From: Lutraria lutraria
Lineage: Eukaryota; Mollusca; Bivalvia; Venerida; Mactridae
Reading direction: 5' to 3'
Assembly: GCA_964023205.1 (NCBI GenBank)
Contig: OZ026842.1
Location: forward strand, 32,934,992 to 32,998,991
Length of the DNA: 64,000 bases
Made by a program: the position numbers and the translations under genes. The notes beneath the pieces are model-generated. The model did no database searches, was not told the DNA's origin, and saw only the letters and a program-made list of their open reading frames with translations. Of the stretch, positions 351 to 3,300 are shown one piece after another (the stretch's first letter is position 1; every line of letters starts with the position of its first letter).

Positions 351-3300
351 CTGAAGAAAGAAGACAGTATTATCAAAGTACTGAAAGTACTCATGGCAAC
401 AATTGCACGGCAGATGTAGAAAAACATAGTACATAGTACTTTGATCCACATAAAAATGAATGCCAGTGAAGGCTACGGAAAGCTGAACTATCTACAGTTT
501 CCAAAAATTATGATATCACAGAATTTTAACTTTCCAATGGAATGACATCGAAGCCAAGTTTCATAAAATAATGGATGTAAAATCTTTTATCTTTCTTATG
601 CCTACCATCTGAGAATGTTTGGCACCAAGAAAGACAACTCTAAGAAGATATTTTTGTACTGTATTACTTCCCTTTTAAGTTCCAAAAAAATCAAATAGTT
701 ATGTTAATTGAGCTTAGAATGTCATAAAGAAAAAAATACTGCTATCTTATGTTTAATGTAAAAAAAATAGAACACAGTTCTTAATGCAGGGAATGTACAT
801 TTTGTATATCTACATGATTGAAATAGATATCTAAATAACTTACTGTTCTGAGTGGGGGCTCAAAGATCTGGTCAGTCAGTTCATTGGCAACACGGCGGTT
901 TCTAGATGGGTGATCTCCCATGTATTTCAGAATAGGTGAGAAACAGTCAAGGAACAAATATCATACAATCGTTTATTTATCTGTTGTTCAACGTCACATT
1001 TGATAGCTACGGTCATTTCAAAGCTGCCTCAGAGAGAGGGGAGATAAGATACATGAGAACCGGACATTTATATTTATTTACCCTATAGTGCTTTTCAAAT
1101 AGTTTTTCCCACAGATGCTTGTTTAGAAAAAATTACCCCACCCACCACGTTCGCTCTTATGACTACTAGTTGTATGTATATTGGTAGTCATAAGAGCGAA
1201 CGTGGTGGGTGGGGTAATTTTTTCTAAACAAGCGTCTGTGGTTTTTCCTGGTTCTTTAATGTGCCTGGTGCAAAGCATCGATACACGCCTTGCCGTTTTT
1301 TCCTGTTATTTTCTAAACTAAGCACTCGGCTCAGTAGTTGGGATAGGGACGTTAAACATGCTAACACAGGATTGACTGTATACTGTTATAAATGATCAGA
1401 TATAACATAGTTACCTCCCTTTTTCTATTTAACATTCATACTTTATGCATCAACACTATTTTTAAAAAAGAGACTTACATTAAAGAATTTTATAAAACAT
1501 AGAAAGGATATCTAGGAAACACATGCAGGCTTCTTGGCTAACTTCTTCACGGCCCAACAGTTTCTTAAGTAGGGGCTGTTTCAAAGGATCTTTGGAACAT
1601 TTCCATAATTCATCAGGTTTGCGTTTTCTAGCAGTAGATAATGTTTTTGTAAGGGTCCTCTTTGGTGGTGGTCTGTAACAAAATAAAAACTCAAAACTTA
1701 ACACAATTAAATGCTTACTTTACAAAAATAGTAAATCAAATGTTATGATGGACTAATGTTTAGTAAACATTCTAGAAAACTAGAAATCTGTCTGGAGGAT
1801 TCAAATGCTCCTGCTGAGCGCTAAGTCAAAAAGGGCCATAACTCCTGTAAAAATGTTTGGATTTTAACATAAATCGAACTAGACCTGTATTTATAATTAT
1901 ACACCTTCATGTAAAATATGAAACCAATCATTTCTTGAGTTATCGCTTGAAAACCAAAATTTGAACAGACAGACGGACAGGTACCACTATACGCCCTTCT
2001 TCCATTTCAAATGGCAGGGCATGAATAGAAATAGGATCTCCATGGTCAAGTGGTTCTCTGACCTGTAATCAGTAGCCCCTCATCATTGAGAGTTGGACAA
2101 ATATCAAATGTAAAGAATCTGCTGACTAGCTAAGTTTACAGAAGGCCGTGTTTATATGCTTATAGGTTCTTCCTCTTGTGTTAAAGATGAAAAGTTGTCA
2201 AATTACCAGGACTGATGGTGCCATGTTATATGTGAAAGCCACTCTAAGACACATTTACTGATGTTATTGACTTATAAAGCACTGAATGTAAGGAAACTGA
2301 GAATGATGGCCATACATTTCCTTTCGCCTTTATTGACAAGTTTAACTGTAAAACAAGTATACCCGTAAACAACAGCATGATTTTTTCCCACTGAACAATT
2401 TAACTATTAATTTAACCTCTCTAGAGAAACAACAATATAATTTTGCTACTCCCAGACTGTTGCTTTGGAGAGATTGCACTGTATGTGAAAACTAACCTGA
2501 AATGGTCAAGAGAATATTCTTCCAATGTGTAAGGTTTCTCTCCGGTTTCCAAGACAACCTCTCCAGGGGTAGGAGTCAACATTGTGGGGTCAGATGAATT
2601 TATAAACAGTTGCTGAAAATATTCCAAAGTTTATTAAGTAAACACAAAGTGACAAATTCTACATTTTCTACTTAGTGGAATAAGACTTTGAATCATATTC
2701 CAAAATGTATTACTCAGGAAATACATAGCAATATATGGCAAAGTTGAGTCACAGTTTCTTACTGGTAACAATTTTGAATCATACCAAAATTACTACATTT
2801 TTTTCCAGCAAATGAACAAATTTCTGTTCTATTTGACTTAGAAGTCAGAGCCCATTGTTAAAAAGATATTTCAGAGCACAGGAATACCGTACAACACAAC
2901 ATACCAGTATTTCATGAGGTGGCTTTGTGATTGTAGGAAGTACATAGACACACTCCGCCGGGAAATCTCCTTTCTTCTGAGTACGAACACACTCGCCTAC
3001 ACACCATCCAGAACTCATGACAGTCTCACCATTCTGCTGTAACAATACAATCAAATCTCCCTTCTGGAAGTTCAGGAATGTTTCACCTGCAAGAAAACAT
3101 AAAAATATTAAGGCAAGCAGCAGATATTTCTTTAGTTCTGAGAACAAAGGGTCCTGTCATATAGTTTTGCATACTTCATGAACTATTCATGAAATGTTCA
3201 AGAAAAGTTCATCATTTCAATAATTTTATTTGAATGGAGGGCCTCTGAGGAAGAAGGGATGGTCCCTGACAAGTAATCACAAGCCCCTAACCTCTGTGAG

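Follow-up and report, generated by a model that had tools for sequence, protein, structure and literature searches.

A probable U12-type AT-AC intron in the myosin VIIa gene of the bivalve Lutraria, apparently shared with vertebrates

In this work we describe an intron of the myosin VIIa (MYO7A) gene of the bivalve Lutraria which is, with high probability, a genuine U12-type (minor-spliceosome) AT-AC intron, orthologous across molluscs and vertebrates and inherited from the bilaterian ancestor. The evidence consists of the splice motifs, the reading frame, the absence of a GT-AG alternative at this junction, a U12 snRNA gene in the genome and read-through residues in the proteins of relatives; it is from these that we infer splicing in Lutraria and the nucleotides at the intron ends in other species. 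The intron belongs to a known class, of which it is an ordinary member, and what it contributes is evidence for bilaterian descent and for systematic annotation damage. Its apparent sharing with vertebrates goes beyond the earlier sequence-only reading of 936..1511. Coordinates are those of the window, the whole stretch of 64,000 nucleotides that was analysed.

Results

The host gene

Most of a single MYO7A gene lies in the window, on the minus strand. The cores of 29 exons were placed from the six-frame list of open reading frames, and neighbouring cores were scanned for frame-preserving GT-AG or GC-AG introns. A GT-AG solution was found at 27 of the 28 junctions in the window, the focal junction being without any, and the joined frame of 1780 amino acids (aa) contains no stop. 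The tail of MYO7A, which lies outside the window (locus L009), was matched to the Ruditapes MYO7A; it has a GT-AG solution at 10 of 10 junctions and is open up to a TAA. In total, the model comprises 38 introns, of which 37 are GT-AG and one is AT-AC. Pfam finds Myosin_VII_N, Myosin_head, IQ, two MyTH4 stretches, parts of FERM and SH3 in the 1780-aa model, in the order of class VII myosins; past the second MyTH4 domain (MyTH4-2), the domain order is taken from the Ruditapes match in L009, not from Pfam. This order identifies the host gene, at the level of sequence, as myosin VIIa. The features discussed below are the following.

289..29117, minus strand: modelled MYO7A portion within the window, 29 exons and 28 introns (27 GT-AG, 1 AT-AC)
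1512..1672, minus strand: exon 27, first part of MyTH4-2, ending ...EACMCFL + G, phase 1
936..1511, minus strand: intron 27 of the model, 576 nt, phase 1, AT-AC
1503..1511, minus strand: putative U12-type 5' splice site ATATCCTTT, 9/9 with the consensus RTATCCTTT
1473..1478, minus strand: decoy GTAAGT within the intron, behind an in-frame TAA
1109..1241, minus strand: inverted repeat inside the AT-AC intron, 58-nt arms, 17 nt between them, 98% complementary
961..963, minus strand: in-frame TGA upstream of exon 28, limit of its open frame
946..954, minus strand: putative branch site TTCCTTGAC, with the branch A at 947, 11 nt ahead of the final base of the intron
936..937, minus strand: terminal AC dinucleotide, read from the sequence
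844..935, minus strand: exon 28, starting with CT + 10 residues

The intron, its ends and its predicted splice product

On the minus strand the intron boundaries read G/ATATCCTTTCT ... TTCCTTGACTGTTTCTCAC/CT. The intron lies between the first and second base of a codon, and the predicted exon join is ...TTCCTAG/CTATTCTG... The donor, branch site, AC terminus, phase 1, gene and MyTH4-2 domain claimed for 936..1511 by the sequence-only reading are all as it described them. The structure 5mv9, which we take to be the human myosin VIIa tail, matches the joined product of exons 27 and 28 over 83 of its 84 residues (1-83; E 1.1e-28) with one gap, located elsewhere; the alignment is gap-free across the junction, in agreement with the proposal that the spliced peptide is collinear with vertebrate MYO7A. 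A Pfam search with the 84 residues alone gave no match. MyTH4-1 of the same protein is homologous to MyTH4-2, an 18-residue stretch corresponding to a 17-residue stretch, and its corresponding site lies, without an intron, inside exon 18 (8715-8416), whereas MyTH4-2 has the AT-AC intron.

The consensus of U12-type introns is RTATCCTTT for the donor and TTCCTTRAC for the branch site, and scoring the sites of the Lutraria intron, a check that the earlier reading had proposed, gives 9/9 for each. In the window as a whole, RTATCCTT was found 5 times against 6.53 expected, and the branch-plus-end pattern twice against 3.88 expected; neither being above chance, single-motif counts were dropped as evidence. 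When the bases of the intron were shuffled 200,000 times, no shuffle had both a 9/9 donor at the start and a 9/9 branch site with its A 8-21 nt from the end (the single rates are 1.5e-5 and 2e-4), and among the 28 introns of the window a score of 9/9 on either motif is seen only in the focal one, the best donor of the other 27 reaching 7/9 and the best branch site 8/9. The joint placement of the two motifs at the one junction demanded by the reading frame is not a matter of chance. By these marks the intron has the 5' splice site, the branch site near the 3' end and the AT-AC termini of the U12 type.

The 728.5 Mb assembly (71 contigs) contains a U12 snRNA gene at G000:C4:10260016-10260166, which matches the model along all of its 151 positions with a score of 100 bits; the same model search was positive in 0 of 14 control genomes. 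This gene contains GTAAGGAA, presumably the stretch of U12 snRNA that pairs with the branch site. As judged by the U12 snRNA alone, the host genome would possess the minor spliceosome. Rfam at gathering scores, applied to the window only, gave no match. The focal intron has the donor, branch site, branch spacing, termini and phase 1 of animal U12-type AT-AC introns and, like them, stands single among GT-AG introns in a genome with a U12 snRNA; there is no difference in kind, and what it adds is the host gene and the apparent deep conservation.

The binding and catalytic steps of the minor spliceosome are well established. In Lutraria, the donor ATATCCTT would be expected to be read by U11 and U6atac, and the branch site to base-pair with U12 snRNA; in the most likely course of events, U11/U12 engage the two sites jointly and U6atac then takes the place of U11. 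The seam between exons 27 and 28 would thereby fall within a codon for alanine, GCT, in the second MyTH4 domain.

Molluscan relatives at the junction

A first set of proteins, found with tail residues 1560-1780 and comprising the best 120 of 2750 homologues, was read at the focal junction. The closest among the matches listed is Ruditapes philippinarum, 88% identical over the tail region and with the same residues at the join, which probably places this clam within or close to the venerids. A gap of at least three residues is present at this junction in 5 of the 23 mollusc-named proteins and in 0 of the 97 others, which include many arthropods (120 matches listed). The five gapped models are those of Solemya, Dreissena, Sinanodonta and Ylistrum and one of three from Mya; Lottia provides a sixth faulty molluscan model, in which a wrong stretch of nearly the right length was missed by the gap rule. 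Gaps of the same minimal size occur at junction 17 (8/23 molluscs, 73/97 others), junction 18 (1/23 and 83/97) and junction 24 (6/23 and 3/97), where they are probably natural length variation. Since junctions 17 and 24 vary more among molluscs than the focal one, gap counts alone prove little, and it is the residues that count.

The Dreissena polymorpha model reads ...EACLCFLDILSVCVL... (FLDILS) at the junction and terminates some 30 residues further on, which is what translation of G-ATATCCTTTC would be expected to give. This public model, labelled 'partial' by its source, fits the earlier prediction that GT-AG gene finders would truncate the gene. Just before ILKYMGD, the Solemya model reads FLD-SCV-P and that of Lottia LLN-SIL-P, while the Lutraria frame upstream of exon 28 reads FLD-CFS-P, so that the branch signature and its spacing agree. 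Junction residues are missing from the models of Sinanodonta and Ylistrum, from one Mya model and from two Octopus models; the other Mya models, another, complete model of Octopus bimaculoides and that of Ruditapes are collinear. Among the 120 proteins listed, all 13 models on transcript-sized contigs (longest <9 kb) are collinear at the junction. Such contigs are little longer than the coding sequence (for example P0004, 2176 aa on 6713 bases), and these 13 models look like products of transcripts.

Vertebrates and other animals at the junction

The vertebrate set was collected with the Solemya read-through as query (best 120 of 1980) and is enriched for faulty models by design. In the models of cats, donkey, hamster, birds and some fish, as in those of Solemya and Lottia, translated intron ends bearing the branch-site signature stand immediately ahead of [VIM][LM]KYMGD. 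The tiger, Iriomote cat and donkey read FLD-GSP-P and the hamster FLN-SLP-P; in fish, we find FLD-CCV-P in Lates MYO7B, LLD-SCV-P in Sparus MYO7B, LLD-LCV-P in Esox (MYO7B-like) and YLN-LCA-P in Denticeps MYO7A, and Polymixia and Danionella (MYO7A) read FIDIL. The labels of Esox (MYO7B-like), Danionella (MYO7A) and Sarotherodon (MYO7A) were assigned in this analysis. Among the bird species in the matches listed, again from the enriched set, 26 of 36 have the donor signature DIL after CMAF[IT] and 32 of 36 have [IVL]LD at a distance of four residues ahead of the junction proline; no species of the 36 lacks both. Neither signature was found in five fish models with a wrong junction (Channa, Oreochromis, Oryzias, Sarotherodon and Scophthalmus), and the models of Brachyhypopomus and of the frog Pseudophryne are collinear. 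An AC end is consistent with the signature and its spacing, and also with the proline at the junction, since the intron would finish on the first C of the proline codon; the proviso is that relatives were compared as protein only and that FLD or DIL fixes the codons only partly.

A coral query returned 15 matches, 9 of them new, and 6 of these 9 are collinear at the junction (one coral, two sponges, a fish MYO7B and two myosin XV). Three mollusc proteins from this query were aligned: that of Saccostrea is a collinear but diverged copy, and the two from Octopus lack the junction stretch.

Models damaged at this junction are P0006, P0020, P0045, P0023, P0026, P0036, P0214 and P0215, together with many vertebrate myosin VII models among P0121-P0208. 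Allowing an AT-AC intron would probably mend the damaged public myosin VII models.

Discussion

Alternative explanations

The junction residues could be supplied by a hidden exon placed between 1511 and 936 and flanked by two GT-AG introns, an arrangement that the sequence-only reading had itself named as fatal to its proposal and for which the intron offers a strong decoy donor, the GTAAGT at 1478-1473. On the minus strand this decoy lies behind an in-frame TAA, into which, as that reading had stated, a predictor choosing it would run. The decisive point is at the other end: going upstream from exon 28, the open frame stops at the TGA at 963-961, and from this TGA through the KYMG codons the sequence has three AC and no AG, the first AG coming after KYMG, so that, whatever lies upstream, no GT-AG acceptor preserves both the frame and these conserved residues. 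Moreover, in the 37 length-keeping joins (offsets -18 to +18), AT-AC ends are found only at the join proposed here and GT-AG or GC-AG ends at 0 of 37, and both the 5mv9 tail and the collinear models of relatives are without an extra residue at the junction. Barring a frameshift or an assembly error, these sequence constraints refute the hidden exon, which we regard as having virtually no chance of being real. A mutation in a decayed or mis-assembled gene, rather than an intron, could also break the frame, and our data come from a single assembly; against this, all other modelled exons are open, the gene reaches its TAA, and matching breaks occur at the same junction in models built on separate genomes, molluscan as well as vertebrate, which makes such an accident extremely unlikely.

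Concerning the machinery, terminal dinucleotides alone do not settle it, and some AT-AC introns, known from sodium-channel genes, are of the U2 type, removed by the major spliceosome. Those described in the available part of PMC2831892 have G at +5, whereas the focal intron has C at +5, in addition to a donor and a branch site that are 9/9 to the U12 consensus and a branch A placed 11 nt ahead of the final base; the probability that it is a U2-type intron is accordingly very close to nil. It is also conceivable that the intron is real and was gained, or converted to the U12 type, in molluscs independently of the vertebrate one, given that the collinear models of arthropods, annelids, nemerteans, amphioxus, sponges and corals are silent on intron type and that 0 of the 97 proteins not mollusc-named, among the matches listed, have a gap at the junction. 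However, mammals, fish, Solemya and Lottia share the same codon and the same three-residue spacing from branch signature to proline (the bird spacing is four residues), and, in the part of PMC2831892 available to us, loss is commoner than conversion and conversion runs from U12 to U2. We consider independent origin improbable and favour a U12-type intron of common descent.

Shared ancestry and significance

The last common ancestor of molluscs and vertebrates would then have carried an orthologous intron, placed at this codon and in this phase, and the intron would be older than the MYO7A/MYO7B split. Across Bilateria the protein-level read-through signatures agree with such orthology, the five fish models being without them. 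A human exon boundary presumably lies near codon 1776; it was not used as evidence. In the orthologous U12-intron clusters of U12DB and IAOD, as presented in excerpts of PMC2831892 and PMC7367187, position, phase and subtype are likewise kept across species. It is likely, at a lower level of confidence than for the intron itself, that the ends have stayed AT-AC since the bilaterian ancestor, with no switch to GT-AG in clams, limpets, birds, mammals or fish, that the junction is a recurrent blind spot of annotation, and that the output of the minor spliceosome may therefore limit MYO7A in hair cells and retina.

As to the published setting, phase 0 is disfavoured among minor introns, at an average of 22%, and molluscs belong to those protostomes in which such introns are comparatively numerous (PMC10639083); the AT-AC share of human minor introns is put at ~24% (PMC9636908) or ~26% (PMC10639083). 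The AT-AC subtype of U12-type introns converts less often than the GT-AG subtype (same partial view of PMC2831892), which fits a long retention in MYO7A. In the literature collection searched, we found no paper naming a U12-type or minor intron in MYO7A, and U12 intron databases may well list this one; the accessible text of the review PMC9604452 holds no statement of a U12-type intron in MYO7A, and "U12" in that of PMC8703989 is a patient number, not an intron class.

These observations suggest that a single non-GT-AG intron accounts for an entire category of broken public myosin VII models, molluscan as well as vertebrate, for which a simple annotation fix follows; the damaged public models include orthologues of the Usher 1B gene. 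If human MYO7A has the same intron, we infer that standard splice-effect rules could overlook variants of its donor or branch site when Usher syndrome is tested for, and that minor-spliceosome disease could touch hearing through MYO7A.

Other elements in the intron and in the window

The folded RNA of the AT-AC intron is much more stable than that of shuffles (z -10.58). The inverted repeat at 1109-1241 is MITE-like and probably incidental, and a 19-base piece of its arm has no second occurrence in the window; resembling a mobile-element remnant and having no tie to splicing, it was set aside as a functional element. MYO7A intron 17 (15479-8716) contains 100 copies of an 18-bp tandem repeat (9924-11728) that is open in several frames and therefore gives spurious open reading frames of >600 aa. 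Minisatellite arrays are present at 37956-38430 (20-bp unit), 52124-52400 (46), 54787-55630 (20), 57430-58206 (37) and 61780-62033 (74). Finally, a 373-aa open frame at 62301-63419 (minus strand) has a Pfam FkbM methyltransferase domain (E 5.6e-14) and is probably a separate gene.
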